From Capitulum mitella (Eukaryota; Arthropoda; Thecostraca; Pollicipedomorpha; Pollicipedidae), in assembly GCA_030062745.1 (NCBI GenBank), contig CP099853.1, forward strand, positions 1-64,000: a stretch of 64,000 nucleotides of DNA. The letters are read 5' to 3'. Shown piece by piece: positions 4,915-59,340 of the stretch (the stretch's first letter is position 1; each line of letters starts with the position of its first letter). A model generated the notes under the pieces. That model did not search any database, was not told where the DNA came from, and saw only the letters and a program-made list of their open reading frames with translations. The translations under genes and the position numbers were made by a program.

Positions 4915-6122
4915 TCCGCGTCCTGTTGTGGGTCGGAGCCATGCACGTCCGACTGGAGGAGGGGGGGGGGGTCTGACCGCCCGCCTTTAACTCACAAGCG
5001 ATTGGTTGTAGGATAAAATAAACGTACCGCTGGAAAGCTCATGAGTAAAGCTCGAAACTGGTCTCATTTTTAGTTTTGTATAATATGTAAGCCACTCATG
5101 CTCTATATGTCTTTTCTTAGACGCCTGCATGAGACCGAGAAACGGCCTGGATCTCAAGGGCTGTGATCTCAAGGACCTCAAGGGCTGGCTAATAAGGTCT
5201 AGACAGAGGCACCAGCGGGCAGGTAAAAGTCCGCAGATGCCGATACACGTCTAATTTCCCTGATTTGTTTAATGTGTATGGGGGAACGCTGAGTTAAAGA
5301 CAAGGCGATTTTCGCACCGCTGCTGGGCGGGCGCCATAGGCGAGCGTGATATAAAATTAACGGGAATTAATTTTAGCGCTCCGTTATTATTGCGCAATAT
5401 GCCTTCCCAAGTGTTATTTCTTGATCCTAGTTTCTCGTACTTAAATGATGAAAAAACACTAGTTATCAGTCTACACAATTGGTGCAGCTTTATTTGCGAG
5501 GGCCTGTTTATTTCCAAAATTTCTAATCTTTTGAAACTTTTTGAACTTCTTGGTATTATTTGCAATCGTGCGGGCCAGTTCTGCCATTTTCTACTCGATG
5601 TGAGCCAGTCATCGCCGATTTTCGTGACGGTGCATTTTGATTCCTTACAGTTATTTGTCATCGGTCTCAGATCAGTGGTCGGAGGTCACTGAAACTTTGC
5701 TCATTGACTGAAACTGGATGTCTGGATCTCCCACACTCAAACTGATATAAAAAATCCACCAGTTTTGGAAAAAAACGATGACATGTTAAAAACGGGTTTG
5801 ACCTTAGGTCAATGACCCAGACATTATCGAAAAATCTGGGGTAGTATATTTGTTGCATTAGCCATAATCTCTTATCCTTGGAAGTTTAATTGTGATATCA
5901 TGTTTTGCGAAAAAATTAGAGGGCGCTAAACCTTTTTGGACATAGGTCATTTGACATGACCTAGGTCAGACGCCTTACTTCACCTGAGATCAAAAACTGG
6001 TCGCAATGTGTAAAAATGATAAAGCAAAAGGCACGCAGAGTTTCGTGGCGCTGCGTTAGTTTGTCCTCTCGCAATCTCGGAAAACGTCAGGGGGGGGGGG
6101 GCGGTTAACCAGTCGGGGAGGG
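4915..6122 (-). mobile_element. TTAA-flanked non-autonomous element, family 1, copy 1
   Basis: The element is bounded by TTAA at 4911-4914 and 6123-6126, has no coding capacity and is about 1.2 kb. In this orientation the CGCGTCC...CGTCCGACTGG end is at the left and the CCAGTCGGGGAGGG end at the right. It shares its interior with the copies at 15.4, 40.6, 42.8 and 61.2 kb: the GGGGG-rich subterminal block, TTGACCTTAGGTCAATGACC at about 5800, and the ATGAGACCGAGAAACGGCC block at about 5130. TTAA duplications and CCC..GGG termini are characteristic of piggyBac-superfamily non-autonomous elements. One terminus has drifted (TTAATCCGCG). Confidence 0.85.
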
Positions 6123-6126
6123 TTAA

Positions 6127-6902: not shown

Positions 6903-7170
6903 CATCTCAGGTGTCCCATCCACTGTGGACCTGTCTCAGGACTGTGACTGTGAACCTGTCTCGGGGCTGAGCCATCTACTCTGGACCTGTCTCAGGACTG
7001 ACCCGTACACTGTGGACCTGTCGTGGGACTCACCCGGCCACTGTGGACCTGTCTCAGGACTGGCCCGATTATGACTGTGAACCTGTTTCGGGGCTGAGCC
7101 GTCCACTGTGGACCTATCTTGGGACTCACCCGTCCACCGTGGACCTGTCTCAGATCTCAGTCGTCCCACC
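6903..7170 (+). repeat. Degenerate minisatellite, ~34 bp period
   Basis: The phrase CCACTGTGGACCTGTCTCAG, followed by GACTGACCCG or a GTGAACCTGTCTCGGGGCTG variant, recurs about eight times with substitutions. Frames on both strands through this block (for example the minus-strand repeats reading DRSTV) only reflect the repeat. Confidence 0.8.
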
Positions 7171-7640
7171 ACCAACACAGGACAGCAGCAGCCTGGTCAG
7201 CTTCATACCCTCCAGCCGGAGATGGACCGGCGACGACGGACTCTACTCTCCGTTATGTTTAATGATGATAGACGTGGGTAAAACGTGCACATCATATCAC
7301 AACTTTGGGCCTTTGCGGGTATCATACTGATCTGTCTGGTGATGGTCTAGATGTTGATCTCATAACGGTCTACGAAGGAGAGGATATTAATGTCGAAACA
7401 TCTTCAGTCACCACGGCCATTTACTGCGCACACTGATGCCAGATCACAACCCGTTAGCCACCACTAAGTCAGCACGGCTGCAGTGCTTACTGTTTAAGGC
7501 ACCAAAGCACCAGCGTTTGTGGGCTGCCAAGAGCAGACTTCTCCATTTAAAGGAATTGTTCCACTCTCGTCAGCCAGCCATGCCCGGGCGTCGTCCTCTT
7601 CAGCAGATCTTGTCGGGCGGCGCCCTCTTCAGCCGGGGTG
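7171..7640. other. Intergenic, includes left edge of segmental duplication
   Basis: No gene recognised. Similarity to the second unit starts at about 7507 (GCACCAGCGTT) and becomes strong from 7587. This corresponds to 18143 and 18237 in the second unit. No clear AATAAA for gene A1 is visible here on the minus strand, unlike for A2. Confidence 0.5.
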
Positions 7641-8206
7641 TCATCCAAAGAAGCAGGGCCACCTCAGGCAGCAGAAGGGGCCGCAGCGCACATAGCAGTG
7701 TGGACACGGCGGGTACACGACGTTGAAAAAGCAGCCGAGGTTGGGCAGGAGCCGGCCGGGTTGTCCGCCGATGGTACAGCTCGGCAGCTGATTCAGGGAC
7801 GTCGCACGCCGTCCGTCGCTCTTGAAGCAGACAGAGAACGAGCCGTCACTGGCAGCCCTCAGACACCCAGGAACGAGCGTCAGCGGTGTGGACGGGGCCA
7901 GCCGGGAACCCAGACATGGGTGCACCGAAACATGGGACTGAACCGAGAAGAAAACACGAGAATCAACACAGATACGAAATCTGCAAATGACCAATGCTTC
8001 CACATAAAAATACATGAAGATGATCTGCTACATACTTGACTAACGACAGAACTTTTAAAAGTATTCTGGTGTACGTGAAGTCAAGATTCACTGTCACAAA
8101 AGATGAGGGTCAAATACAAGATAACTCTTCACCGCATCTCACGTACCATACCGAGGAGCAGACAGGTGAGGCAGATCAGAGCCGTGTAGCCAGTTCTCAG
8201 ACGCAT
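7641..8206 (-). CDS. Gene A1: small secreted cysteine-rich peptide precursor (2 exons)
   Basis: Exon 1 (8206 down to 8147) encodes a 20-residue signal peptide starting MRLRTGYTAL with a Leu/Cys-rich core. It ends at a strong donor (ATG|GTACGTGAG). Exon 2 (7937 down to 7641) follows a pyrimidine-rich acceptor (TTCTTCTCGGTTCAG). The 209 bp intron is phase 0, giving a 118-residue precursor. Exon 2 carries 11 cysteines spaced C-x16-C-x11-C-x16-C-x14-C-x8-C-x2-C-x3-C-x3-CC-x4-C and ends WPCFFG. Copy A2 keeps the same exon lengths, splice sites and every cysteine, about 91% identical, which argues for selection. The role is unknown: an antimicrobial, signalling or matrix peptide would all fit. There is no match to a named family that I can support. 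Gene B1 lies divergently upstream. Confidence 0.7.
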
Positions 8207-8526
8207 TGCTGGCGCTCTTCTCGGCGGCTAACACCACGCCAAAACACGGCTAGGGCAGACTGGTGTGCTGTCTTCTCCGGAATGCCCTTCTCGTCCTTAT
8301 GGCCACGGATTTCAGCGGTGCTGTTTTCCAAGTAAAATTTTCTTCTACCTTCCACAATGCTCTTTAAACATCCTTCCACGCTAGAGTGATGTTTCTCGCG
8401 ATCTGTGAGCGCTCTTTGAACCTAATGTAAGCCTTCGGCGGAAATCTGCGTTTGACGCACGCACGCACAGGGTGACGTTTCTCGTCGAGCTCTGCCACCA
8501 AAGTGTTCTGGAACTTTGCAGGGGTC

Positions 8527-8532
8527 TTTATA
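8527..8532 (-). promoter_or_regulatory. TATA box of gene A1
   Basis: TATAAA on the minus strand, within ATATAAAGA, lies about 320 bp upstream of the A1 start codon. The same motif occurs at 19168-19173 before A2 at nearly the same distance (about 314 bp). This implies a leader of roughly 290 nt. Conservation in both copies supports a real core promoter; transcription start sites were not determined. Confidence 0.55.
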
Positions 8533-8549
8533 TGAAGCCAAAACCTAAG

Positions 8550-9005
8550 TCGGATAAAGCTGGCGCAGAGCTTTCGAAACGGGCGTCCCTGTAAACCTGT
8601 TTTTGATGCGCATCAGTCCTGCACGCCACCCATGGCAGCTAAGGCCGACCATGGCGGCGACGGTCCGTTGAAAAACACCGGACGAGCTGAGATCATCACT
8701 GGCCACTGACGCCGCTCGGGGGAGTCGGTGGATTCAACCAGCGGCATCCACGGCACAAACGGGCGGTGAGGCTTGTTCGTTCGGCGACTGCTGACGTCAC
8801 ATGTGTCGCGGACACCGACACCGGCGGGGGACGGGGTGGGAGGGGGGAGGAGAGTCCACGCCGTCAGTCAGGTTCAGACTGTCGCCTGTCGACTGGCAGA
8901 GGCGGCAGTCTGAACTCATCGTTCTGACGCCCCGACTCAGATGTGGGAGTTTTTTATCCGTACGACAGATTTACATACAACACGCAGACGGAGAAATTAA
9001 AGGGA
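8550..9005. promoter_or_regulatory. Conserved intergenic block between divergent genes A and B (unit 1)
   Basis: This stretch matches 19190-19645 in unit 2 closely. The shared blocks include CTGACGCCGCTCGGGGGAGT and CAGACTGTCGCCTGTCGACT. Open frames here shift between the two copies, so coding is unlikely. Its position between two divergent TATA promoters suggests shared regulatory DNA. That role is inference. Confidence 0.4.
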
Positions 9006-11170
9006 GTGTGTCTAGAGTCAAATATCGAATTTTAGCTGTATACGTATCATTAAAGAGGACGCTGGCTTGAATCGTCACGTATCATTCGTTTTCCCTAAAT
9101 CCCGAAATTCCTTAAATAAATAATAAATATGATTCCTAAAATTCTCTAACTAAAAAGATGATCTACGACAGCCAAATATTTACCGCTATTTGCCATTACT
9201 CCAACACCGTGTTGCCAGCACGGATTTATCGGCTTTACTCCAGCTCCTTTTCGTCACTAAGTGAGCCTGATAGCACCGATAACATATCGTTAGCCCCAGG
9301 GAATCATTTTTTTTTAGCTGCGAGCTCGTCAGCAATGACAGCAAACTGTGCCCTGCGAATCATCTTTCGAGTTGCGAACTGATCGGCGACGACAGCAGAC
9401 TGTGAACATATCAAGCTCAGCAGCCTAGCTGCCGGGACCTTATAGAGGTATGTTGGTAAAAACTTGTACATTGGACGGGGTTTTGACTGTCTGATTGCGA
9501 AGGTTTCGTTGAATGATTTTTTTGCCGACATTCTCCACCACTGTGTGAATTTCCCTGATGAGGTTATCCAATTGTTCATCTATCCGCGTAAGTATTTTGC
9601 TACATGAGAGATATCCAGCAACTTCAAATAGCTATGGGCGGTCATAATTAGTGTTATCGGAATCCAAATTCGGGTTTTCAAAATATTCCAAGTTCCGTAT
9701 TGGAAGTTGGTTGGATAAAGCATGCATTTTTCTGTAAAAGTTGGACAGCTTATTGCACGTCAGCTGTCAAAAATGCGATAGTTGAATGTTTTCTAATATT
9801 CCAAACGTAAACTTGGTTCCATGCAGCATACACAAGTGACATTTTGGTGCTGTTATTCAGTACCATGGCTGGCTAAACTTGCTCCGTCTCAAACTGAGAA
9901 ATATGTTGGAATTTCCTCAGACTTGGATCTTGGGCAGTTGTGGGTAATTACATGCAGGATCTGAAAAGCTGATGTTTGTGTACTTGTGTTCCAGAAGACT
10001 TCGTGTTTCAGGATGAGATTGGGTCAGATGGAAAGTTTTGTATGCCAGCACAGACCTAAGCGAAAAATAAATCTTTGTGAGCACAAAAGTTTGCAGGTGA
10101 CTTAGCAATAGTCCTAGTCAAAGATTTCCTGGGGTAGGGAGATCACAGGCAGATAATTCTCATCAGTATTCTGTAATAGGTTGTAAGCTCTTTTTTCTTT
10201 CGCTATTGCAAACTGTTGTTTGGAATGACATGGATAGTTGCATTGTTAATGTTTGCGTTCTCTGTCCTGGCACCACACTTATGTAGCTCAACAGTGCGGC
10301 TATTCTTTGTTGCTCATTCTTGTATGTCACTTGGGCATGAGCTCTGTTCTTTTCTTTCACAGTGAATATTTGAACCAGATGGTTTTGAAACCAATGCAAA
10401 TAGTCAAGCCTGGCTGATGGGTGTCTGAACAAAAAACTGGCATGCAGTGTAGTGGCTGCCATTTTGTTGACTGCTGGTTAGTAAATGTAAAATTGGCAAC
10501 AGCCCATTTGCCATTTTGGCATATCAACCTCCCAGTCAGCTAGAAAACATTTAGAAGCTAACAAAAAGGCATGCACCAAATTGCTTAATGATTTTTTTGT
10601 CATAGAACTTGACTGATGTCTAGATTAAACCTATTCAAGCAAAGAATAGCAATGATGCTGTCTCACATACTGCTGTTTGTGGGTTATTGTTGTGTGTATA
10701 TGCAAATAATACCCACCAGTTAATGATGGGCAGACAGTAGTTATTTACATGGGACACTAGCATCGTCAAAATAATGGTGGCCATTTGCTTGTTGAACATT
10801 TGAACATTGCTACACATATCATTAACCCTGCTTCAAGAAATACATACCTGTGCAGATCTAACCAAAAATGGTAAAGCGTGCATCAGAAGAATTAACTTGG
10901 CTTTAAGGGGATGGCTTATGTTGTTCTGCTGACCGCGGGAACCACCATTCAGCAGATGGTGACGAAACATCGAAATATGCAACTTCTGAATATGAAACCG
11001 CCGGCCGCCAACGTAGCTCGCGGGAGCCTCGGTGGTTTCGTGACGCCACATAGCGTCGGGCGCATTTGAAGACCACTGTACCTTTCGGCGAGAATATTTC
11101 ATGAACGAGACGTCGCACAGCAGTCTGAATGGTATTTATGTAATCAGCGTCTACAGTTTATCGGATGAGT
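9006..11170. mobile_element. ~2.2 kb insertion-like segment present only in unit 1
   Basis: Similarity to unit 2 stops near 9005 and resumes near 11170, so this segment separates genes A1 and B1 relative to A2 and B2. Its left part (9049-9228) matches 58349-58478, which shows repetitive origin. A short internal duplication (about 9315-9400) repeats a module containing GCAATGACAGCAAACTGTG or GGCGACGACAGCAGACTGTG. I find no transposase motif and no clear target-site duplication. The open frames are short and unrecognised, including a minus-strand one at 10833-11102. Confidence 0.45.
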
Positions 11171-11755
11171 ATGAAAACAAAAAATCGGTCACTACTCAAT
11201 AAGCAGCTCCAGGCCGGGCCGAGGCCCGGCTGGCCACGGCGGGACATCGACGGAACTACCCCGGGGCGCCCGACACGACACCGGAGCCGATTAGAGGGCT
11301 CCGGACGGCACGCGACGGCGGCCCGACAGACAGACAAGTAGGCCGGCGGGCCCTGTGGCTGCTGCCAGCGCGCGCCAGGAGCGCCGGCGTCACCAAACAC
11401 GCCGTCAGCCGCCTCGTCCGCTGCTTCACCTGACTCGCCCCACCCGACAACGGGGCAACGTTTCCACGTGGTAGTCGTTGCTTCCGAATGCAACAAATGG
11501 ACTCGCCACCCATGAAGACGGCGGCGCACTTTCACCAGGCGTCGCATCGAGTCCACCGAACGGCCAACACTTCGACCTTGACGCCGAATCCGTCGCGCAG
11601 TTCCAGCCGTGATGGGAGAACATCCACGGAGGAAAACCCCCATCTGCGCAGGTGTTTTGTGGGGGGGGGGGGGCACGGCGTCCGACTGATAAACGGGAAG
11701 CCGGGCATTCCCAACGTCACGCACGTCTAGTCCCGCCCTGGGCTTCTGTGCGAAG

Positions 11756-11761
11756 TATAAA
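11756..11761 (+). promoter_or_regulatory. TATA box of gene B1
   Basis: TATAAA in the context GTATAAACGGTATGCGAGC lies exactly 294 bp before the B1 ATG. The second unit has the same sequence at 20153-20158, also exactly 294 bp before its ATG. The leader between them is well conserved. Confidence 0.6.
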
Positions 11762-12049
11762 CGGTATGCGAGCGGTCGGGCGGCAGCAGACGGTGGCAGG
11801 CGCCGTGTCCGAGCTGGCCCCTCCAGCCGTCTTCAGCGAGAACGGTTTACCAGGACAGACGCTAGGATCACCCCACACAGTGTGGAGCGGAGCAGAATCG
11901 AGTACGTCGACAGACCAGGACACCGGGACGACCAGGTCAGAGCAGGACGGCGGAACAGAGCGGAGCGGTCCAACTGCATACAAAAGACACAACAGCTGAC
12001 AAAAGACAGCCAGCCAGAAAATCTCCCCGCAAGAAGTGCCCCAGACATC

Positions 12050-12447
12050 ATGCAGACAAGAAACGTTATCAAGTTGGCCTTCATCGTTAGTGCCATATTC
12101 ACAATTTTACGCCCGGTAAGTTGCCCTTTTTGAGCGTTCCCTCCCTCCCTCTCTCTCTGTTTGTCTGTCTGTCTGTCTCTGCCTTTCTATCGGTTTACCC
12201 CTGTCGCTCCGTTTCCAGAGACGTGGGTGGACGGCTGACGGCCTCTGTCTCTGTTCTGCCTCAGACGGAGGGCCAGCGGCGAGCGGCGACAGCGTCGTTC
12301 TCGGTTGGCAACGGCTCCGACGTTCCGCCCTGTTTGGCCGTCCAGGCCGCACCCAAGTGCGCCATCATCGGCGACGCCTGCCCGCAGGGCTACCGCCGCT
12401 GCGGCCGCCGTTTCTGCTGCAGAATTTGGCTGTCCGGACGGAAATGA
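12050..12447 (+). CDS. Gene B1: small secreted cysteine-rich peptide, six-cysteine CC-ending framework (2 exons)
   Basis: Exon 1 (12050-12115) encodes a 22-residue signal peptide starting MQTRNVIKLAF, ending at donor CCG|GTAAGT. Exon 2 (12265-12447) follows acceptor TTCTGCCTCAG. The 149 bp intron is phase 0 and the precursor is about 82 residues. Exon 2 holds six cysteines spaced C-x8-C-x6-C-x6-C-x4-CC in a basic context ending RRFCCRIW. Six cysteines closing with an adjacent pair resemble the defensin-type layout in general form, but spacing alone does not prove that fold. The RCG..FCC motif is shared with gene A's C-terminus (RCGPFCC). Together with the same intron phase after a signal exon, this suggests A and B are distant paralogues. 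Confidence 0.65.
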
Positions 12448-14173
12448 CCGCCGCACGCCCAGCTACCGTCACAGATGTCCGGCAAAGGCGCTGTCACGTC
12501 AACGATGTCAGGCAGAGCAGCTGTCGCAGCAACATGCCTCCTTCAGAGCTTACCTGCTGACTGAAGATTATGTCCACCTGGGAGGTGTCGGCAGCGACTG
12601 TCGAGCTGCCATAAGAAAGCAAAACATGACCAAAACCGAACTCGGGAGTGTTGTATTGCACTGCATTAACATCGTGGAGTTTCCACTATGGGGGCAACTA
12701 TTATACTCCGAATGACGGTGATTAACACGTAAAAGGTGAAAAGGAAACAAGTTGTATAAATGTGGTACAAGAAGTGAACCTCTCGCCTTACCCTTGGTGT
12801 TTAGCTACAATTTGTATGGCATGATTTCACTGTTTTACTGTTTCTCTCATCCTCACTCACAATTGTTTTTGGTCCAGCTTTGTGTTATGCTGCTGGTTTA
12901 TGCTGTCAGGTAGTAAACACACACGGATGGCGTAAAGCATTCAAACAGAGAAAAGCTGATGTTCATGCAGTATTTGCACAGTGAAGAAACCATTTGTTTA
13001 CTTCTCCCGACGGAACACCTTGCTCTGGTTGCTTAAGATTAAGAGGAACTTGGTCTATGAGTAAGGGCACTCCGCAGTTAAAACACCACCAGCCGTTCGC
13101 AGGCATCGGCCGACAGAGATAAACCGCTGGTGTCACAATCTATTGACGAGAGCTGGCAGACGCCCCCGCGTAATTCTCGCCACGCTTGCCTGAAACTTTT
13201 TTTTCAATGAGCGCATGCACAAATGAAACGTCGCTATTTCCAAACCAGACGACACGACCAACCAATCGTCCGCGGCGGGGCGCCAAGCGACAACGGCGCG
13301 GGAAGCGGGGATAACTGCCCCCAAATTTTTTTGAAATCCAGCATTGACCCTGAGCGTGTTGGCTGGACAAAACCCACCCGAATGCTTCTTTCCCCCCCCC
13401 CCCAAACTGTGGAGGACCTCCCGCGACCCTGCCCAACCGGGACCGTAACTGGGCTCTGGGCGCGATGGCTGCAGGGGCGGTGGGGGTCGGGGGGGGAGAG
13501 GTTAGGCGATGATCCGGCCGCTCGCCGGAATTTCCAGACCACAAGCCGGCGCCCGCCGGAGCTGGCGGTCTGGCGGTGTTCACACCGCCCACCGGCGGGG
13601 GTGAGCGAAGGGAACCTCGAGTGCGGCGCAACGCAGCGCCGTCCAAGAGCGGCGAGTCTGGCGCAGGACGGAGTGCGACGGCGAGGAACGCCGCAGAACA
13701 ACCGCCGGAAGGCGGCTGAGGACAGTGGCTGAGAGGAGCTGCCCAAGTCTGGGTCTGTCCCCACTGAGGGCAAGACACACAGGGCATACGTCAAAGATGT
13801 TTGGTGTCATCGGCGATTTCGGCTACCCTTCCAAGACAGTGAGTCCTTTTCAAGTTCGTCAGTTCTGCGTGAAAATGACACGCGTCTGTCTTACTGTTTG
13901 GAGTTTCACGCGGAAACCCTTCACTGAAAAAAACAATGTTTTGCATTCGCATCACGTGACATCAGGGGCATACAGCGCAGTTATTACGGGCGATCAGGTC
14001 CGCTCAAGGACGAGATGTTTCAAACCGGTTCTTTCAATTCTGTCCCGATACCTTGGTTGGCAGTCGGCTGAGAGTTCGGCACGCTCCAGTACTTCGGTGA
14101 TTACGGGTGAGTCGTTGATGGAGCTTCAAACGCAAGTACTTCCTCTGACAAGGAGAAACATTAATGTTAGACA
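12448..14173. other. Intergenic between duplicated units; GC-rich 13.2-13.8 kb
   Basis: No firm gene. The stretch 13133-13810 is GC-rich and open in several frames on both strands, with no recognisable motif in any. I read it as compositional. A possible isolated short exon at 13797-13838 is listed separately. Position 14156-14173 begins a 13-mer tandem repeat (ACATTAATGTTAG) hit by two TTAA elements. Confidence 0.45.
13797..13838 (+). CDS. Candidate initiating exon (14 codons), unidentified
   Basis: ATG at 13797 begins MFGVIGDFGYPSKT and runs straight into a strong splice donor, ACA|GTGAGT, at 13838/13839. No downstream exon was identified. The call rests only on the start plus donor, so chance is a serious alternative. 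Confidence 0.2.
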
Positions 14174-14177
14174 TTAA

Positions 14178-15402
14178 CCCTATTCCCGGAGGGCTAGACG
14201 GTACGGTCGATTCCCGGCAGGGGGGGCGGATTCGGCCCCCCTGAGATCTCGAGAACTACTCGTCTGATTTCATTGCAACAAACGGCAATCGATTTGCCGT
14301 GATGTGAACTACATTTTTATCAAAAGAGATTTTCAAAATTTTGAAATTTGTGAATACAGGGGGCAAAAATTTCAAAATTGGGGGTACTTTTGGACTTCTT
14401 ATAACTCCGTTGTTTATCAACCGATTTCGATGAAACTGGCATGAATCGAGAGATTATCGACAGGGCTTTCACCATGGGTGCACAAATCTGAAATTTTGAG
14501 AAAATTCATGGGCGTTCACAGGGTTTCAAAAATAGGAGGATTAGTTTTCTAACAACTGAATGAACAAAAGAGGCAAACACCCTTTTATGGTTCCTGCTAG
14601 TAATGTTATACTAAAGGAGTACAAATTGCATTACAATGTTTGTATATATAATTATAATTATATTTATAATATAACATTATAATGTTACCAAAGGCGGTGT
14701 CAGGGGCATGAAAAAGGGGGAACGTTCATGGTCACACGTTTCTCAGATCAACTTGTGACCTTTGACCTTAAATAACCTCCAGTGACCTTGGGGTCACTTG
14801 GAATGATCTCCTATGCATTTAATATCATCTTTAAACGTTTTCAATCATTTGAATTCACTCTATTTCAAAAATTTCATTTTATGGCTATTGCGATATAAGG
14901 TATGCGCACTGACATTTCAGGTCATAGCTCCGTGACCCGACCTGATATCAAGCTGAAACTTGGTACACAAGTAGAAGGCACCCTTCTACGTCATATATAT
15001 TCCGAGTTTGGTATTTGAAAAAACGGCGCCGAAATTATTGCAAAAAGACAAATTTTGACTTTTGACCTTGACCTGACCTTGTCAAATGACCTCAGGTGAA
15101 CAAAATTACATCTGTGCATTGCCCAAATATTTAGCTATACATCCATATAAAGTTTGAAGTGCTATCTTAAAAACTCTGTTTTTGGCAGACTTCCTTCTAC
15201 CCTCAACATGGCCAAAAATGGCATGAGGTGCCTCCCAAAAACGTTGCCTGGCTCCGCCCCTGTGCAAAATAGAATTTTGAAATTTTGTCACGGCACGTAG
15301 AAAGAATAGCTAGGAAAAGTGACCAAGTTTCGTGAAGTTGCGGAATTGGCATGCAAAAAACCCGAGGGGGGGCGGATTCAGCCTCCCCTGCCGGGAATAG
15401 GG
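14178..15402 (+). mobile_element. TTAA-flanked non-autonomous element, family 2, copy 1
   Basis: The left end CCCTATTCCCGGAGGGC follows TTAA (14174-14177). The right end CCGGGAATAGGG is followed by GTAA (15403-15406), which reads as a TTAA duplication with one substitution. The termini are inverted relative to each other (CCCTATTCCCGG), with G-run subterminal blocks. The interior matches 36070-37136 in reverse orientation. There is no coding capacity. A perfect DR1-type AGGTCA repeat lies on the minus strand at 14756-14768. Classed as piggyBac-type from TTAA plus CCC termini. Confidence 0.75.
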
Positions 15403-15412
15403 GTAATGTTAA

Positions 15413-16643
15413 CCCGAGCACGACCGTCGGTCCGTCTCGAACACGGTCGACTGGGGGGGGGGGCAGTTCACCGCCCCCTCTAACTCACGAACGGTTGGTC
15501 GTACGATAAAAATAAGCACACCGTTGGAAAGCCTGTGACGAGTAGAGCTCGAATCTGGTCTCATTTTTAGTTTTAGATGATATGTAAGCAATTTACGCCC
15601 TATATATATGTTTTCTTATAGCCAACTGCATGAGACCGAGAAATGGCCTGAATCTCAAGGACTGTGCCTAAAAACGCTTAGGTAAAGGTACCAGCGCACA
15701 AGTAAAGGTCCGCGGATGCTGATACGCGACTAATATTTCCCAACTTTGTTCATATATATACGCTGAAACGTTGAGTTAGAGACACGGCATTTCTCGCGGC
15801 AGCTGCTAGGCGTGCGCTGGTGCCGTATGCGGTCACAAATTGACGGGAACTAATTTTAACGTTCCTTTATTTGGCAAGAAAAGACGATCTGTATGATCTG
15901 ATCACTATGTACATTTTATTGATTTTAGAGGTTTATGTGATGGTTTTTCATGCTTAAATTTTGGAAAAATTCATTTGTTACCAATGTACAAAATTGGCGG
16001 AGCTTTATTCGCGAGAGTCTGTTTGTTTCCAAAATATGCTAGTTTTTCAAACTTTTTGAGGTTCCTGGTATTACTTACGTCTGTGCAAGATAGTTCTGCC
16101 ATTTTCTACCCATTCTGAGTAATTCGTCGATTTTGACGGTGGTACATTTTAGCTCACTATAATTATTCGCGACGTGACCTCAGGTCAATGGCTGGAAGTC
16201 ATTAATACTTTGCCCAATGACGGTAACTAGATGTCTGCTTCACTCCACACTAAAAATATTATGAAATATTCCGTCAATTTCCGAGAAAACGGCGACATGT
16301 CTTAAAAATGGGCTTGACCTTAGGCCAATGACCCGAAAAATTCCAAAAAATCTGAAATAGCAGATTTTTTGCATCTATCACGATCACTAATCCCTGAAAG
16401 TATTATTGAGATATCTTGTTTTGCAAAAAAGTTGGAGAGCGCTAAACTTTTTTGGACATAGGTCTGTTTGACCTGACCTTTGTCAGGCACCTGACCTGAC
16501 CTGACGTCAAAATTTTGACACGAGATGTAAAATTGAGGAGACAAAAGGTGCACGAAGTTTCGTGACTTTGTGTTTGTTCGTTATGTCGCAATCTCAGAAA
16601 AACCTCAGGGGGGGCAGTCAACTGCCCCCCAGTCGGGGACGGG
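15413..16643 (-). mobile_element. TTAA-flanked non-autonomous element, family 1, copy 2
   Basis: Bounded by TTAA at 15409-15412 and 16644-16647. The left end is CCCGAGCACGACCGTCGGTC and the right end reads CCCCAGTCGGGGACGGG. It is about 1.23 kb and non-coding. It sits only 6 bp beyond the mutated right TTAA of the family 2 element, so two elements used neighbouring TTAA sites. Confidence 0.85.
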
Positions 16644-16668
16644 TTAAACATTAATGTCTTGCTACTAT

Positions 16669-16914
16669 TCACACATGATCCACATCCAAAACTGCACTTG
16701 AATCAGAGACAGGAAAAATTGATTTACGAGTTGAAAACGGCTGTGGGGCGGCTGAAGATCCTAGAGGATTTGGGGAGTCTAGACCCACGCTTTCTGTTGT
16801 TCTGTTGGCGGAGGGCGCAATTATCTGCATAGACTCCTCCACGGCTGGAGGTTTCCGAAAATTATTGGAGGGGGTCTGAACTCTGAGTAAGATTTCAGAC
16901 TGTTCCGTTACCAT
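16669..16914 (-). CDS. Unidentified open frame, possible exon
   Basis: An 81-codon frame starts at an internal Met (MVTEQSEILLRV) and ends DSSAVLDVDHV. It continues open upstream to 17130. Composition is protein-like (Ser/Pro/Glu mixed, not repetitive), but I recognise no domain and no conserved copy exists in the window. It could be an exon of an unknown gene or a chance frame. Confidence 0.2.
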   Translation of the reverse strand: MVTEQSEILLRVQTPSNNFRKPPAVEESMQIIAPSANRTTESVGLDSPNPLGSSAAPQPFSTRKSIFPVSDSSAVLDVDHV

Positions 16915-18140
16915 GATTGTCGTAGCCCGGATGTTAAAGCGTCTGCAGCACAGGCACATCATTCCCCTCGCGGGCAGTTGCGCTGCCCTCTTCACTAAAC
17001 ACACACACACACCTCCATGGCCGGCTGTGGCCACGGTCTCGGTTGACCAGACCGGTTTCCGTTGCACGGTAGGTGGTCGGAAGAGGAGGTGTGTCCTCCG
17101 TTTGGCCGCCGCGCTGTCCCCTCCTAACACTGCCGGATCCAGCCGGTTCGCAAGGGGGGCATATCATACTGGTAGACCCCCAAAAAACGAAGTCCTCGGA
17201 TTATGGTCACTAGAATTTACCTTTTTGAATTATTAAACGTTTCTGTGGCGCACACTGACAGATGGCTTTATACTCGGAGCATGCGTAGCACAGTAGTAAA
17301 TTTGCCATTTTCTGCCAAATCATACTATAAGGTGGGTTCGTTACTGATTATAACACTGCATAAACGTTCTTGGTAAAAAAACGTTATTTGCTGGTGAGCA
17401 CAAAGTTTGAAACTCAGTACCACGAGCATGCTACTGACATCCATCTGACATGTCTGGATGACCCTACAAGTCAGTTTGTCCATGCTGCACATTTCCACGG
17501 AATGTTGGGCAACATTGCAAGGCCGATATCTCCACACTGACCATCTTAAGCTTCATACACACGCCACCAGCTTGCTCGCAAAACTGAAATCTGCATAAAA
17601 CCATCAAAGGTCAAACCACGAAAAAACACTGCTATGTTGCAAAAAACTGCTGTGTGAAATGAACGTGCAGTTTGTTACAAGAAAATTCGGCAGTCCATCT
17701 GACCGCACACAAAAATCAGTTCATTCAGTTTGTCTTCTAAAATGTGTTCTCTGGATTTGGAAAATGCAAAATACGTAGTTGGCGTAGGATGACCTAACAT
17801 CAGGTCAGAGGGACTCCATACTGAGCTCTGAGGTCATGGTGATTGCTGACGTGCAATCACAGACAGGCCACAGTCACCATACATTGCAAAAGTACCGACA
17901 TACGGTGGTGAAGTAAAACTGGAAGTGAAATGGCAAAGCATGGTTGTCCTTATAACGTCATTACGACCTGACTAAAAATGACGTCGTTCCCACATTTTCG
18001 TCAGCATGTTCAAAATCCATGTAATTCAAAGCACAACGCACTGAAAGTTTCAGGATAATGCGTTTATTTTTTCGGATATTTCTAAGAAATGGGCCAGGGG
18101 TTGTTAAACGCCCCTCCCCCAGTCAATGCCGGGTTGAAGT
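16915..18140. other. Intergenic; possible remnant of a CCCGGCA-ended element
   Basis: No gene recognised. The right part (about 18060-18133) ends TCAATGCCGGG followed by TTGA. This mirrors the end of a block starting near 21644 (TTAG then CCCGGCAGTTGCGGGG), which suggests a further degraded TTAA-type family. The other end could not be fixed. Confidence 0.35.
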
Positions 18141-18171
18141 ACCTACGCACCAGCGTTCGTGTGGTGCCAAA

Positions 18172-18177
18172 TTTATT
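18172..18177 (-). terminator. Poly(A) signal of gene A2
   Basis: AATAAA on the minus strand lies about 114 bp downstream of the A2 stop codon. Position and motif fit a cleavage/polyadenylation signal. The equivalent is not obvious for A1. Confidence 0.4.
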
Positions 18178-18290
18178 TTTCCTTTCTAAAAGATGATTTA
18201 TACACTTTTTTCACCATCTTCCGTCCGTTCCGTCCGGGCGTCGTCCTCTTCAGCAGATCTTGTCGGGCGGCGCCCTCTTCAGCCGGGGTG

Positions 18291-18854
18291 TCATCCAAAG
18301 AAGCAGGGCCACGTCAGGCAGCAGAAGCGGCCGCAGCGCACATAGCAGCGTGGACACGGCGGGTACACGACGTTGGAAATGCAGCCGAGGTTGGGCAGGA
18401 GCCGGCCGGATTGTCCGCCGATGGTGCAGCTCGGCAGCTGACTCAGGGACGTCGTACGCCGTCCGTCGCTCTTGAAACAGACAGAAAACGAGCCGTCACT
18501 GGCAGCCCTCAGACACCCAGGAACGAGCCTCGGCAGCGTCGACGGAGCCAGCCCGGGGACCAAACAATGGTACGCCGAAACATAGGACTGAACCAAGAAA
18601 AATGACAATCAACGCCGACACATATTTCACAAATAACAAATACTCCTCAAAATAAATATACAAAGATGATTTACTACTTTCTTCATTGAAAGCAGACCTT
18701 TTCAAAGCACTGAGCCGGACGTAATGTCAAGAGATTCCCTGTCACGAAAGATGAGGGCCAAATACAAGATAACCCTTCACCGCATCTCACGTACCATACC
18801 GATGAGCAGACAGGTGAAGCAGATCAGAGCCGTGTAGCCAATTCTCAGACGCAT
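18291..18854 (-). CDS. Gene A2: small secreted cysteine-rich peptide precursor (2 exons)
   Basis: Exon 1 (18854 down to 18795) encodes a 20-residue signal peptide (MRLRIGYTAL...), with donor ATG|GTACGTGAG. Exon 2 (18587 down to 18291) follows acceptor TTCTTGGTTCAG. The intron is 207 bp, phase 0. Exon 2 is 297 bp, the same as A1, and keeps all 11 cysteines and the WPCFFG ending. Differences from A1 concentrate in the N-terminal part of exon 2 (for example SYVSAYHC versus SHVSVHPC) and at basic positions near the CC pair. The pattern suggests a live duplicate pair rather than decay. A role as secreted effector or structural peptide is inference. Confidence 0.7.
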
Positions 18855-19167
18855 TGTTGGTGCTCTTCTCGGCGGTCAAAATCACGCCAAAATACGGCTC
18901 GGGCAGACTGGTGTGCTGTCTTCTCCGGAATGTCTTTCTCGTTCTTACGGCTACAGATTTTAACGGTGCTGGTTTTCAGGTAAAACTCTCTGCCACCTGC
19001 CGCACTCCTCTTTCAACACCCTTCCAAGATAGTGTGATGCTCCTCACGACCTGTGAGCGCTCTTTGAACCTAATGTAAGCTTTCGGTGGAAGGTCTGTGT
19101 TTGACGCACAGCGTGACGTTTCTCGTCGAGTGTTACCACCACAGTGTTCCGGAGATTTGCAGGGGTC

Positions 19168-19173
19168 TTTATA
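19168..19173 (-). promoter_or_regulatory. TATA box of gene A2
   Basis: TATAAA on the minus strand, about 314 bp upstream of the A2 ATG, conserved with A1. It lies 980 bp from the divergent TATA box of B2. Confidence 0.55.
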
Positions 19174-19189
19174 TGAAGCGAAAACCTGA

Positions 19190-20152
19190 GTCGGCTGAGG
19201 CTGACAGCGAGTCATCGAAACGGGCGTCCCTGTAAACCTGTTTTTGATGCGTATCAGTCCTGCACGCCACCCATGGCATTTAAGGCCGACCACGGTGGCC
19301 AGCGCCTAGCCACGGTCCGTTAAAAGACACCGAACGAGCTGAGGTCATCACTGGCCACTGACGCCGCTCGGGGGAGTCTGTGGATTCAACCAGCGGCATC
19401 CAAGGCACGAACGGGCCGTGAGGCTTGTTCATAAGGCGACTGCTGACGTCACATGTGTCGCGGATGCCGACACCGGCAGGGGACGGGGTGGGAGGGGGAG
19501 GAGAGTCCACGCCGTCAGTCAGGTTCAGACTGTCGCCTGTCGACTGGCAGAGGCCCGACCTCTTCATTCCGACGTCCCGACTCAGATGTGGGAGTTTTCG
19601 GTCTCCAAGACGAGTTTACATGCAATTTCCAGGCGGAGATGTTAAATTCGAAAACATTGCTCCCAGGCAACGCCCACGCTCGATGGTCAACGCCAGAGAG
19701 TTCGGAGTCTGGAGTCCAGAGTCCAGAGTTCATATTCTAAGTTACGGAACATTTCACGGCCCGGAGTCCTGAGTCCTGACTTCAGGTTCTCGAGCCTAGA
19801 AGATCAGAATGCCTAGTCCGGAGTCCGGAGTCAGGCGGTTCAGCGTCGGCGGCCGGCGGGACGACTCTGCAGTGGCGAATCTGCGGCGCCGGGCCAGCAC
19901 CATTCGAGGCCCTGCCGGCCACGGCAGGACACGTGGCAACCGGCACCTCCGAAGTCCGAACGCCCCGAAACGGACTGGCGACGCCTGACGACGACGGCGG
20001 CACAGTTTTATCAGACGTCGCGTGCCGCCTGCCGAACGGACAACATTGACTTTGACGCACTCGCCGAGGGAAATTCGCATCTGATGAAACAGAAAACCGG
20101 ACACGAGAACGTCACGAACTGGGGCGTCGCCGCCCAGGGCGTCCGTGCTCCG
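19190..20152. promoter_or_regulatory. Conserved intergenic block between divergent genes A and B (unit 2)
   Basis: 19190-19645 matches 8550-9005, and about 19880-20150 matches about 11180-11750. Between these, 19680-19840 holds a short run of GGAGTCCGGAGTC-like repeats not seen in unit 1. This is the compact form of the divergent intergenic region, lacking the 2.2 kb segment of unit 1. Confidence 0.45.
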
Positions 20153-20158
20153 TATAAA
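20153..20158 (+). promoter_or_regulatory. TATA box of gene B2
   Basis: TATAAA in the context CGTATAAACGGTATGCGAGC, exactly 294 bp before the B2 ATG as in B1. Confidence 0.6.
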
Positions 20159-20446
20159 CGGTATGCGAGCAGCCGGGCGGCAGCAGAGGGTGACAGGCAC
20201 CGTGTCCGAGCTGGCCTCTCCAGCCGTCTTCAGCGAGAACAGTTCGTCAGGACAGACGGTAGGATCAAACCACACAGTGTAAAGCGGAGCAAAATCGAGG
20301 ACGTCGATAGACCAGGACACAAGGACGACCAGGTCGGAACAGGACAGCAGAAGAGAGCAGAGCAGGCCGCTTCCATACAGAAGAAACAGCAACAGCTGAC
20401 AAACAGCCAGCCAGAAAATCTCCCGGCAAAAACTGCCCTACACACC

Positions 20447-20709
20447 ATGGAGACAAGAAACGTTATCAAATTGGCATGCATCGTCTGTGCCGTATTTACA
20501 ATTTTACGCCCGGTACGTCCTTTTTGGTCTCGTTCCGATTCTGCCGCCAATACTGTCGCTCTGTCTCTGTCTCTGTCTCTGCCTCCGTCTCCGTCTCCGT
20601 CTCCGTCTCTGTCCCTTCCTCTGTCTCTGTCTCTGTCTCTGTCTCTGTCTCTGTCTCCTTCTCTGTCTCTGTCTCCGTCTCTGTCTCGGTCTCTGTCGGC
20701 CTATTCGTC

Positions 20710-20751
<42 letters not shown>

Positions 20752-20973
20752 TTGCGCATGGCTCTGCGTCCCTGTCGCCCCGTCTCTGGAGATATGGACG
20801 AACAGCTGACAGCCTTTGTCTCTGTTCTGGCGCAGGCGGCGGCGGTAGGGGCGGCGCCAGCTCACCGGAATGGCGGGAGCCGGCCTTGTCATCCCCCGTC
20901 GGGCGCCCACGGCGCCGAATGCCAGTCGGGCGCGGGTTTACTTTATGTGGAGAAGCTTATCTTCGTCACCTAA
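20447..20973 (+). pseudogene. Gene B2: diverged copy of the six-cysteine peptide gene, framework lost
   Basis: Exon 1 (20447-20512, METRNVIKLAC...) is nearly identical to B1, with donor CCG|GTACGT. The acceptor TTCTGGCGCAG at 20835 is also conserved. Exon 2 (20836-20973) stays open for 45 residues but holds only two cysteines. The region corresponding to B1's last four cysteines, including the CC pair, is replaced by unrelated sequence ending EKLIFVT. The intron has grown to 323 bp through CTGTCT and CT repeats. It may be a pseudogene after an indel or rearrangement, or a copy with a new tail. Confidence 0.5.
20561..20750 (+). repeat. CTGTCT/CT microsatellite in the B2 intron
   Basis: Imperfect CTGTCT and CCGTCT hexamers run from about 20561 to 20700, followed by pure CT to 20748. 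The B1 intron has only a short CTGT run (about 12160-12180). Long open frames reading Ser/Val or Leu/Cys on either strand here are repeat artefacts. Confidence 0.9.
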
Positions 20974-21643
20974 AAAGAGCATTACGTATCGCAATTATTC
21001 GCACACGGCACTGGACTTTGGACCGGAGAGATAATAAGTCTCTAATAAGAGAGACATAAGTCGACGCAACGCACGAAACAAGTCTTCGTTTAAGAGAAGG
21101 CAATTAGGATCGATGCCACATCTCGCGAGTTTCTGCCAAAGGACATAAAACGCACTACGAACTTCAGGGCTGCAGTGACATTTCAGGGAGCATCACTTGA
21201 AGGTTACGACTTAGCAAAAGGTCCTTCGTGGTAATAAGAGGCAACGACGCTACACAAACTCCACTTTTTCTATCTCTGAGCGTGAGCACTGCAATGCCTC
21301 TTGAGTACAGTTACAGGAGACACGAGGGACCTGTTTACACAGGGCCGCAACAGACGGTGGCAGCGGCGGCCGGCGCCGGCAGCGCCACCTGCCGAATACC
21401 GCCGTTCCGTAGCCCATGTGCCTAACGCCCATCCCATACGAACAGGTGGGCATGACGATCTTTACCGTATTGTTGGCCTGGGAGTGCTCAGGACAGATCA
21501 GACTGCGTTCAGGACAGACCCAGCTCATGGTCCGGACATACAGATTGTGACCATACGAGTCCACGGGCGTAGTTTTCTGTTCTTTGCCGCGGGTCCCTCG
21601 GCACCCCACATGTTGACTGGGCATTCCCAAAGATATGTGAATT
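20974..21643. other. Intergenic, nothing recognised
   Basis: No gene or repeat recognised. Unit 2 of the peptide locus ends near the start of this stretch. Confidence 0.45.
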
Positions 21644-24860: not shown

Positions 24861-26045
24861 CTATGGAAGAAACTCGTCGGCGAATGAGTACAGTTCGAGA
24901 GGCAGGCCCGCGTACCCTCGACTTCGCAGCAGCTTGTGTAGTCGGTAAATGTACGTCCACACCATTAGGCGAATGTCCGAGCCATACACTGCTCTGTCGG
25001 CCGCGGCTGGGCGCCGTTTCCTGTGAAGATGCCCCCCGGCGTGCTGGAGGGCACAGCGCAGTCGCACGGGCTCCGGAGCCACGCCCAGGAAGGTCAGCAT
25101 TGCCTCCAGCTGTGTCTGCGTCTGCCGCTCCAGCAGCTCGTACGGCACCAGCAGGGTGTCAGCCGGATCGGTGGCCCAGTCCTCGTGAAGCCGCCACCAC
25201 TGCTCAATGCGCTCTCGAACAAATGTTGCCCAACCGCTCGCGTGCAATGGGAAGTCGTCCGCACGACTGCTGTTAATAAGGGGATGTTCTTGAAAGTGGT
25301 CGACAGAAATGAAGGCAGTGAAAGGGTCGCGCACGAGCAATACGGCTCTCAAAGGATAACCATGGGCCAGGTCTTTGGTGTTCCGCCATGGAGGTGAAAT
25401 CTCGTGCGTCTTGAACGCAATGCAATTTCTCATATGGGATGGCATGAGCTTCCCAACGAAGGCCATGTTCGGGGGAACAGGGTCACTGCCTCCCATCATC
25501 TTGAGAGCTTGCATAACTTCACCTGCTGACATCAGGCCCAGTTCACTCGGTGACACGGCTTCAGTTTCCGTCGACGCAAAGCCGCCGCAAACGGCCAGCC
25601 CGCTGGCCGCCTCCAGCAGGTAGTGCGCCCACGCGTCCCCGGAACGGAGGAACGAGACGAGCCGGACCGGCGGCAGACTCCCGGTGCGGGCGAACCCGGT
25701 CCGGTACCGGGAGCAGACCGGGTCCGTGAACCAGGAGCCGCTGGGCAGGGCCGGCTCCCGCAGGTCCTCCAGCGACAGCCGCAGGAGGCCGCCGTCGCCT
25801 GACGGGGCGGCGATGTGCGGCTGTGTGCTGCCCACTCCCGACTGCGGAGCGCCGGGGAAAGATGAGGAGCCGCCGGCCGGCCCGCCCGGAAAGACTGACC
25901 TCGCGAACACGAGGACGCACAGCACGAGCCCCGCGCAGAAGGCCATCACGACGTTCCGCCCGATGGTGCTGCTGAGACTTGCCATTTGGCGCCGGTATTG
26001 CGAGCACATCACACGCATCGATAAATTTCCAGTTACATAGTACAC
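24861..26045 (-). CDS. WSCD-like membrane-anchored sulfotransferase, single exon, 394 aa
   Basis: This looks like a type II Golgi-style enzyme. It has a short cytosolic N-terminus, one hydrophobic anchor (about residues 32-52) and a Gly/Pro-rich stem to about 100, then a sulfotransferase domain. Visible motifs are a 5'-phosphosulfate loop-like segment FLRSGDAWAHYLLE (132-145), the conserved FKTHE (211-215), a 3'-phosphate-type segment LLVRDPFTAFIS (236-247), a Trp-rich GWATFVRERIEQWW (271-284) and LLVPYELL (298-305). These fit PAPS-dependent transfer to glycan or protein, by family knowledge of WSCD-like proteins. The loop has DA where SGNT or SGTT is usual, and the WSC domains of vertebrate WSCD are absent. 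Met21 (25985) is an equally plausible start. No intron is apparent, so it could be a retrocopy. Confidence 0.8.
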   Translation of the reverse strand: MYYVTGNLSMRVMCSQYRRQMASLSSTIGRNVVMAFCAGLVLCVLVFARSVFPGGPAGGSSSFPGAPQSGVGSTQPHIAAPSGDGGLLRLSLEDLREPALPSGSWFTDPVCSRYRTGFARTGSLPPVRLVSFLRSGDAWAHYLLEAASGLAVCGGFASTETEAVSPSELGLMSAGEVMQALKMMGGSDPVPPNMAFVGKLMPSHMRNCIAFKTHEISPPWRNTKDLAHGYPLRAVLLVRDPFTAFISVDHFQEHPLINSSRADDFPLHASGWATFVRERIEQWWRLHEDWATDPADTLLVPYELLERQTQTQLEAMLTFLGVAPEPVRLRCALQHAGGHLHRKRRPAAADRAVYGSDIRLMVWTYIYRLHKLLRSRGYAGLPLELYSFADEFLP

Positions 26046-27049: not shown

Positions 27050-28041
27050 CGCCTTGGTAGAACTGAAATACATTTCCTGATCAGGATTCTATACGAATGC
27101 TAAGGTGTGTCTCGTGAACTATTATTGCCTTTTAATTCGTCTGTATCAGAGAACTTGAAAACGATAAATGTCTGGATAATACACCACAAAACGGGCTACT
27201 GAGCACATGATGGGTATTGTTTCACAGCTTTGAGCTTCAGTCCCATTCTTACAAAATATGTCTCAACCGTACCAAACTAAGAAGCAAAAGTGGTGATTGA
27301 CTGATATTGGGTTTAGAGGCCTTCCTCGACCTATCGGTCATTATGCGCCGCCTGTAAGGTCTGTGTGAGCTACGTTACGTTAGAATGTATGTCGCGATTT
27401 TCAGGACAGCGCAAGTGTTTCATTTAACGTTACAGGGAGAAAGAATGGTGCATACAAGTGTTTTTTTTTTACGTTGGGTTGTATGTGTGTGAGCCAAATT
27501 TAGATGCCCCTTATAACATCGGCATGGTGTGGGGCCTCCATGAAGCGGAAGCAAGAAGCACAGGGGGTAGAGAAAGGGAGTCGTCGATTCCACCACTGTC
27601 AGTTACGTTACTTGTAGCCCTCCTGAAAAACAAGAAATTTAGGTTACGCTTTACGTTTGATCTTGATAAGGTGCCAGCACATGGCCTACTCTTCACGATA
27701 AACACCGAGAGGTCTTTATCGTGCAGACTAGGAGGAGACTGTCCACACCGCCTCTCACGCTGGCTAAGCGTTTCCCCTATCACGTCGGGTGTTGCGGAAG
27801 AATGGAAGGAGTGAGGAGGATTTGCAGTGTTGTGTAGTTGATATGTCGTGTAGTGTAGCGGTGCTGCCTGTTGGTGACTTGAGCTGGTAGGTCGCGCGGT
27901 CCCCACGGCTGCCTTGTGCGCGGGCGGGGACCGGGACAGATTGACCAATAAATAAAATGCGCGATCCTGGCCAAGTTCCCGTTAGGGAGGTCACCGATAC
28001 TGGTTGTGTGTGGTGTTATTTGTTGTCGTGCAGATGTTGCG
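27050..28041 (-). other. 3' side of I-like LINE subfamily B, copy 1
   Basis: No coding content supported. It is shared with 63036-64000. It probably contains LINE 3' UTR near the coding end, but the LINE 3' terminus could not be fixed because both copies share everything out to the window edge. Confidence 0.45.
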
Positions 28042-30560: not shown

Positions 30561-30609
30561 CATTTCTCCTGAAACGGTTTTGTAGGCAGACATTAGAGCA
30601 ACGTCTTGA

Positions 30610-30722
30610 TGGTACACCAGAAGGCTAAATATCCGGCAGTATCCGGCCGTATACCGGATACCGGATAATCCCTAGTATCCGGCCGGGTATCCGGCCGGAC
30701 CGGATATCCGGCGCATCCCTAG
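30610..30722 (-). mobile_element. hAT-like terminal sequence with CCGGATA repeats
   Basis: A cluster of CCGGATA/TATCCGG units ends in GCGCATCCCTA (about 30712-30722), complementary to the TAGGGATGC start typical of hAT termini. The inverted copy is at 59242-59340 and a related single end is at 26412. No 8-bp target duplication links 26412 with 30722. Non-coding; probably a solo end or miniature element. Confidence 0.55.
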
Positions 30723-30925
30723 GTCCAACCGCCATTGAAAGTTGTTCTACACCGATGAACCGCAGAGCATGCTTTATTGCTATGGAGGCGAGGCGGACCA
30801 ATGTCCATGTAAAGAATATCGCCCACCACGGCTGGTCTGTTTAACTAACGTCGCACACATCTAAAACGCCACATGGAAATTGAGAGACGACTCGAGGCTT
30901 GCGCTCAGTGATCTAGACTGCTGAT

Positions 30926-40595: not shown

Positions 40596-40599
40596 TTAA

Positions 40600-54970: not shown

Positions 54971-54989
54971 CTGAAACGCAACACGGACC

Positions 54990-55310
54990 GTCACAAGGGC
55001 AAACGTGGCCTTCAGGCGGGTACACAGACCGTCACACGGACACACGGGCCTTTTAGACGGGTACATGTGGCATTCGGATGGACACACGTGGACCTCAAAA
55101 GGGCGGGCACACGGGCCCTCAGACGGGCATAGGTGACTTTCAGACAGACAGTGGACCCTCAGGAGACCTTCAGACCGGCACAGGTGGCCTTCAGACAGGC
55201 ACACGAGACCTTCATACGGGCACACATATCCTTTCGACAGACGCACGTGGTTGTCAGAGAAGCACACATGCGAGGACACGGGAACACAAGTGGCCGTCAG
55301 CCGTGTGAGG
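54990..55310 (+). repeat. Degenerate minisatellite, ~20-27 bp units
   Basis: CACACGnGGCCTTCAGACGGG-like units recur about a dozen times. On the minus strand the array stays open and reads repeated CPSEG/CLSEG units. That is a repeat effect unless it is truly translated with the candidate exon at 54857. Confidence 0.75.
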
Positions 55311-59036: not shown

Positions 59037-59241
59037 TCAGCAGTCTGGATCACTGAGCGCAAGCCTCGCGTCATCTCTCAGTTTCCATGTGGCGTTTTAG
59101 ATGTGCGCGACGTTAGTTAAACAGACCAGCCGTGGTGGGCGATATTCTTTACATGGACATTGGTCCGCCTCGCCTCCATAGCAATAAAGCATGCTCTGCG
59201 GTTCATCGGTGTAGAACAACTTTCAATGCCGGTTGGACCTA

Positions 59242-59340
59242 GGGATGCACCGGATATCCGGTCCTGGACGGATACCCGGCCGGATACTAGGGATTATCCG
59301 GTATCCGGTATACGGCCGGATACTACCGGATATTTAGCCC
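59242..59340 (+). mobile_element. hAT-like terminal sequence with CCGGATA repeats, copy 2
   Basis: It begins TAGGGATGCACCGGATATCC and continues with CCGGATA units. It is the inverted partner of 30610-30722. Confidence 0.55.

Follow-up and report, generated by a model that had tools for sequence, protein, structure and literature searches.

Divergent gene pairs for predicted secreted cysteine-rich peptides: a candidate multigene family on one contig of Capitulum mitella

Results

The first 64,000 nucleotides of contig CP099853.1 of Capitulum mitella (20.46 Mb; hereafter C15), referred to below as the window, carry two predicted genes for small secreted cysteine-rich peptides, gene A on the minus strand and gene B on the plus strand, which stand head to head and are present twice. 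It is highly probable from the comparison of their copies that they belong to a real multigene family with the gene structure described here. We read this family, with a rough probability of 0.45, as restricted to its lineage and shaped by birth and death, its secreted disulfide-rich peptides most likely serving in defence; the defence function as such is rated no higher than that. Duplication, splicing and secretion would be the ordinary mechanism, and the sequence appears to be new as far as searched.

An earlier note made from the sequence alone had described the head-to-head arrangement of both copies, and this description is borne out. In the stretch from 7507 to 20973, which was annotated by script, the A genes start at ATG 8206 (A1) and 18854 (A2) on the minus strand and the B genes at ATG 12050 (B1) and 20447 (B2) on the plus strand. 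Between the A segments 7584-9001 and 18234-19646 the identity is 85%, between the B segments 11713-12184 and 20108-20584 it is 81%. TATA boxes are retained in both copies, as had been noted: those of B (11756-11761 and 20153-20158) lie exactly 294 nt before the ATG in either case, and the TATA-like boxes of A are found 328 nt (A1, 8526-8534, CATATAAAG) and 321 nt (A2, 19167-19175) before the ATG. When the promoters of eight of the 10 A copies were aligned, the box of A1 fell into a 14-nt block and a cAMP response element-like TGACGTCA (8792-8799, minus strand) into a 17-nt block, both identical in 8/8 copies. Some of these invariant blocks are identical by descent alone, the copies being young.

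The genome (477,042,490 bases, 16 contigs) was searched with A and B both as DNA and as protein. Only the best-scoring candidates were scored in each search, so that the genome-wide counts of the family are lower bounds. At least 10 A signal exons were obtained, and all listed matches are on C15, at 8.2, 18.9, 72.2, 190.8, 299.2 and 435.2 kb and at 3.17, 10.10, 12.32 and 16.10 Mb; an A fragment is also present at 533 kb. Leaders with signal exons of B occur in at least eight places, again all on C15, which in addition has a B exon 2 standing alone at 16.04 Mb (B12). The earlier note had proposed to look for further pairs on the same scaffold, and at least eight head-to-head A/B pairs, the two of the window included, are present on C15; their ATG-to-ATG distances, calculated manually, are 3844, 1593, 1592, 6385, 5226, 5229, 5246 and 8724 bases. 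Eight weak matches (two on C3, two on C9, one each on C8, C11 and C16, and one at 18.69 Mb of C15) were inspected and none was convincing; seven more, on C2, C4, C5, C12, C14 (two) and C16, stood outside this inspection.

The claim that the whole arrangement and not just one gene had been copied holds beyond the window. Distances calculated from the upstream region together with the signal exon agree between A and B across the eight pairs (Mantel r 0.82), and among all 40320 relabellings 66 were as good, the true one included. We therefore conclude that the pairs were copied as units. In the pair at 12.3 Mb the A gene is near A4-A6 (distance 0.02-0.03) and the B gene is not near its counterparts (0.14); these differing nearest relatives suggest an exchange between copies after duplication. 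The A genes at 3.17 and 10.10 Mb stand alone: no B was found in the 7.9 kb and 8.0 kb of upstream DNA fetched for them, respectively, nor nearby among the genome matches listed. In both of them about 3.3-3.5 kb separates the two parts of the leader. Judged from these loci, the pairing of A with B is not obligate. Since B is broken in four of the eight pairs and weakened in three, and these two A genes lack a B, it is also unlikely that A and B are obligate partner peptides; partner peptides had been one suggestion of the earlier note.

The A genes consist of a signal-peptide exon, a phase-0 intron and a cysteine-rich second exon. Exon 1 of A1 (8147-8206) encodes 20 amino acids, is open in 10/10 A copies and ends at the donor GTACGTGA; that of A2 covers 18795-18854. 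For exon 2 the earlier note had used the acceptors 7938 and 18588, which are probably wrong. In the ten-copy alignment the frame from 7938 is open in 3/10 copies (A1-A3); the AG is gone in A4, A5, A6 and A10, and a stop follows in A8, A9 and A11. A second acceptor, AAG ahead of a conserved RGYGACGGA, is found 322-345 nt from the donor and in phase 0 in 10/10 copies, and the frame from this acceptor is open to its stop in all 10, eight of them ending alike and A6 and A10 extending further. The proposed introns thus measure 326 nt in A1 (7821-8146, the AAG ending at 7821) and 324 nt in A2 (18471-18794), and the second exons, taken from the ten-copy comparison, are 7641-7820 and 18291-18470, each encoding 59 residues with eight cysteines, followed by a stop. 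The stretch 7821-7937, which had been counted as exon 2, might serve A1-A3, and these alone, as an alternative extension at the 5' end.

Gap lengths were compared as well. They are multiples of three in 10/10 cases within A exon 2 (five copies compared), as against 2/18 between the two acceptors and 6/47 in the intron (six copies), the compared pairs not being independent; the inter-acceptor stretch has a length divisible by three in 7/10 A copies. This test is partly circular, because the end of exon 2 was set by its own stop codon, which makes its length a multiple of three by construction, and for this reason our confidence in the second acceptor was lowered, so that 7821 in A1 and 18471 in A2 are regarded as likely. 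Sequence identity is a weaker guide to the acceptor: the inter-acceptor stretch and exon 2 have identities of 0.85 and 0.95 in A1-A2, 0.85 and 0.87 in A1-A11, and 0.89 and 0.86 in A2-A11.

Gene B1 is intact. Its signal-peptide exon (12050-12115, 22 amino acids) is followed by a phase-0 intron of 149 nt (12116-12264) and by exon 2 (12265-12447), which encodes 60 residues with six cysteines in the spacing C8C6C6C4CC and a stop; this spacing is common to B1, B4, B5, B6 and the cysteine frame of B11. The three-part gene plan which the earlier note had given to every gene is right for the donors and the phase-0 introns, but B2 has no cysteine-rich exon 2. By similarity to B1 its signal-peptide exon lies at 20447-20512, and the homology of the two genes is lost around the acceptor. 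The B2 intron (20513-20835, 323 nt) is enlarged by CT-rich repeats. The remaining start of exon 2 (20836-20887) resembles B4, B5 and B6 over about 17 residues, after which different DNA follows, and the second-exon frame read there has 45 residues and two cysteines. The DNA that follows (20888-20963) is a dispersed repeat: a query with 20888-21300 gave at least 42 genome matches, of which 27 are on 12 other contigs, all 27 inside the first 76 bases. A tblastn search with B1 found no cysteine module downstream of this repeat in the window. The nearest copy of B2 is B3, which is 94.9% identical to it in DNA over 2 kb but has a different 74-residue frame there. Because the start of exon 2 runs into a dispersed repeat and B3 reads a different frame, B2 is best called an interrupted gene.

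Three types of A peptide can be distinguished. Type I (A1, A2, A3, A11) has 58-59 residues with eight cysteines in the spacing 14-8-2-3-3-0-4 and a net charge of +4 to +6. Type II, the strongly cationic product of the unpaired genes A8 and A9, has 52 residues, six and five cysteines, respectively, and a net charge of +13. In type III (A4, A5, A6, A10; 126-185 residues, 5 or 6 cysteines, net charge -4 to -7) an 18-residue (54-nt) coding repeat is amplified before the cysteine end, and its copy number varies across the loci at 190 kb, 299 kb, 435 kb and 12.32 Mb. Exon 2 of B encodes 54-60 residues with a net charge of +5 to +10; a seventh cysteine is present in the lone exon B12, and B10 has lost one of its cysteines.

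A and B had been presented as two unrelated families, and this view has to be given up, as a cysteine module is common to their second exons. Each of the 10 A forms closes with a C...CG..CC module, similar to the C-P-x-G-Y-R-R-C-x-x-R-x-C-C at the end of B. When the longer A exon was used, A1 and A2 reached local scores of 68 and 79 against B1, beating 2000/2000 shuffles with the cysteines fixed (maxima 63 and 68). With the shorter exon, A1, A2, A3, A8 and A9 gave p 0.002 against B1 and B11, the floor of 500 shuffles. An hhalign comparison of type I A with B yielded a probability of 78.5 and E 1.7e-5 over 23 columns. No DNA similarity was seen between the leaders of A and B. We consider with moderate confidence that the second exons of A and B are old paralogues which share a C-terminal cysteine module.

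The state of the copies points to birth and death after the pairs had been copied, with B decaying more than A. From the second acceptor 10/10 A frames are open, and 4/8 B copies are broken (B2, B3, B10, B11), three are weakened (B4, B5, B6) and B1 is intact. The weakened copies have open frames, but their signal core contains an arginine and their TATA box reads TATTAA in place of TATAAA; the maximal hydrophobicity over 10 residues, a crude substitute for a signal-peptide predictor, is 1.85 in B5 compared with 2.74 in B1. B2 and B3 are interrupted, and B10, which shares this interruption, also has TATGAA and a second exon start. B11 keeps TATAAA, but its frame is shifted by +1 where exon 2 starts, unless splicing goes to a later acceptor; the frame of the lone exon B12 likewise does not match its acceptor.

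In five comparisons (A1-A2, A1-A3, A1-A11, A2-A11, A3-A11) exon 2 is 86-95% identical and the intron 71-77%. In A8-A9, exon 2 (0.84) falls below the intron (0.94), a pattern that fits rapid amino-acid change and equally weak constraint. In B1 the leader and signal DNA are 83-85% identical to the seven other B copies, and the mature exon has 44-46% protein identity to B4, B5 and B6. Nonsynonymous and synonymous divergence (dN/dS) was estimated by script after Nei and Gojobori, with small site numbers. For A the values are 0.063/0.023 (A1/A2, exon 2), 0.121/0.193 (A1/A11) and 0.195/0.138 (A8/A9), and for B they are 0.400/0.477 (B1/B5), 0.051/0.124 (B4/B5), 0.017/0.074 (B5/B6) and, in the cysteine part, 0.065/0.064 (B1/B11). 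The B leader was considered as a hidden coding sequence, since both copies in the window can be read through in the frame of the signal, and this was rejected, as dN (0.184) is about equal to dS (0.193) and the frame has no ATG.

The profile hidden Markov model and structure searches which the earlier note had proposed were run and gave no credible Pfam or PDB family. Pfam had no match for A and one sub-threshold match for B (E 0.058), NCBIfam had none for B, and profile searches of the PDB with A and B returned nothing credible. The B profile matched PDB entry 8pjs (SAKeCEref) at E 2e-7; this protein, which we take to be a designed repeat protein, was dropped since no single stretch passes alone and the paired cysteine end is uncovered. 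Searches of the open-access literature did not bring up such a family either.

Several other elements are present in the window. An inverted duplication (45386-47900 and 51075-48539, 97.5% identical over 2.5 kb) has reverse-transcriptase-like frames within or adjoining it. The regions 27050-30925 and 59036-64000 are inverted copies (92-93%) of an element of the type without long terminal repeats, with reverse transcriptase and RNase H frames. A repeat family of about 1.2 kb, 71-87% identical and in both orientations, occupies 4944-6126, 15409-16650, 40596-41735, 42791-44012 and 61164-62374, and short tandem arrays with 31-bp and 21/41-bp units lie at 6915-7151 and 54981-55247. On the minus strand, 24861-26018 is a single-exon sulfotransferase-like gene, for which a single protein relative, that of the spiny lobster Panulirus ornatus (27%), was found at E 0.001.

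Discussion

According to the reading we favour, the messenger RNAs of A and B would each be spliced once and the signal peptide would be removed from the precursor. The product of the cationic cysteine exon would then fold with disulfides and act outside the cell, the mature peptide most likely being an antimicrobial-type defence peptide of this crustacean.

A number of results weigh against this reading of the family. The type III A forms are acidic and repeat-rich, unlike antimicrobial peptides. The likeness of A and B is weak except in some members: A6 against B1 gives p 0.112, and p 0.05 is missed in many of the comparisons with B4, B5, B6, B10 and B12. Because dN/dS is mostly not low, being lower only in B4/B5 and B5/B6, relaxed constraint is possible. 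No NF-kB-type site common to at least six of the eight A promoters was found. A1, A2 and A3 could still use the acceptor of the earlier note, which would give them the longer exon. The AlphaFold models, made from three-sequence alignments and in the case of A with this longer exon, have poor mean confidence (predicted local distance difference test, pLDDT, 36.8 for A and 53.5 for B). That of B has three short strands at block pLDDT 58-72, and its best Foldseek match against the PDB has E 4.0; with both models poor and nothing below this value for B, no fold was assigned. Finally, a search of 5.8 billion proteins, which requires shared 5-residue words, gave no match for B1 or for the A1 and A2 precursors, the A queries being the 118-residue form with the longer exon. 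As there is no credible Pfam or PDB family and this protein search, within its sensitivity, gave nothing, it is fair to speak of an undescribed peptide family. That both members are kept is not borne out.

A and B might instead be expressed together and cross-linked to each other in an extracellular matrix such as egg case, cuticle or cement, like the HcA/HcB chorion proteins of the silkmoth, a reading which we find less likely. The gene plan is as in chorion, with paired paralogues, a signal exon and a major exon, one chromosome, pseudogenes and unpaired genes (PMC4639761), and the 18-residue repeats of type III A could be structural. Against a matrix role, the two ATGs of a pair are 1.59-8.7 kb apart, compared with 330 nt in chorion, so that a shared promoter is unlikely, and several pairs keep A and lose B. 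Pfam contains chorion models, and A and B have no Pfam match; the chorion central domain is matched in neither.

We are more doubtful that the peptides act in reproductive, pheromone or venom-like signalling, as fast-changing ligands whose signal and leader outlast the mature region. The conservation of the B1 leader and signal beside a mature exon of 44-46% identity to B4, B5 and B6 would be expected of such ligands, but a conserved leader with a variable mature region is usual in defence peptides too.

Two further explanations appear improbable. In one, A and B would form a two-peptide effector and work together; pair 1 is the one pair with both genes clearly intact, and elsewhere A would have left the pairing and gained repeat-bearing and highly cationic forms. 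In the other, the family would consist mostly of decaying relics, with one or two working genes and the rest, B2 included, being pseudogenes. The interruptions in B2, B3 and B10, the frame faults in B11 and B12, the signal arginine and changed TATA box of B4, B5 and B6 and a dN/dS often near 1 speak for decay of this extent, but 10/10 A frames are open from the second acceptor and A1 and B1 are intact. That the frames are no genes at all, but chance open frames in a duplicated segment, agrees with the short exons, the lack of homologues and the lower identity of exon 2 than of the intron in A8-A9, but is very improbable given splice sites, cysteine spacing and frame conserved over up to 10 copies and the higher identity of exon 2 than of the intron in five A comparisons.

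Comparison with known systems

Among crustacean peptides we compared the family with panusin, a beta-defensin-like peptide of lobster, using the sequence tabulated in PMC10301333. Like B, panusin is cationic with six cysteines ending in an adjacent pair, and it shares with B1 a CPxG at the third cysteine. Its spacing is 6-4-9-5-0 (C6C4C9C5CC), whereas B has 8-6-6-4-0 and type I A has eight cysteines. Alignment of panusin with B1 is not significant with the cysteines fixed (p 0.27 and 0.17), and the comparisons with B1, A1 and A2 all gave at least 0.17. No defensin match to A or B was found in Pfam or the PDB. The family resembles the big and beta-defensins in being small and secreted with a six-cysteine domain in the last exon. 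According to the passages of PMC7203481 used here, the cysteine domain of big and vertebrate beta-defensins is preceded by a phase I intron, gastropods and horseshoe crabs have additional phase-0 introns, and no phase is given for panusin genes; A and B, in contrast, have a single phase-0 intron after the signal. The beta-defensin fold is a three-stranded sheet with 1-5, 2-4 and 3-6 disulfides, no fold being assigned to B from its model. Membership in the beta-defensins or panusins was rejected on the grounds of cysteine spacing, sequence and intron phase.

PpRcys1 from a barnacle and TjRcys1 from a copepod, cysteine-rich antimicrobial peptides obtained by genome mining (PMC12195476 and PMC12842719), are likewise secreted cysteine-rich crustacean peptides. 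They have 12 and 11 cysteines, respectively, and the positions in PpRcys1, compared by hand, fit neither A nor B. The gamma-core of TjRcys1 ends in KFCCKV, somewhat like the RFCCRI of B1, a likeness judged by eye only.

The closest architectural analogue appears to be the chorion locus of the silkmoth. As reported in PMC4639761, 21 HcA/HcB pairs stand strictly head to head at a distance of 330 nt; exon 1 is the minor and exon 2, of 300-500 nt, the major one, and the one-chromosome cluster includes pseudogenes and unpaired genes. The likeness is that paralogues from two branches are paired head to head on one chromosome, with a short first and a major second exon, and that pseudogenes and unpaired genes occur. 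The pairs of Capitulum mitella differ in their wider spacing, in second exons of mostly about 160-185 nt and in the loss of B while A is kept. If the peptides are antimicrobial, they would form a crustacean family without detectable defensin ancestry. The family would in any case be an orphan family of secreted peptides in which a divergent pair of paralogues is the unit of duplication, as in silkmoth chorion, and in which the two members of the duplicated pair meet an unequal fate, A being retained and B lost.

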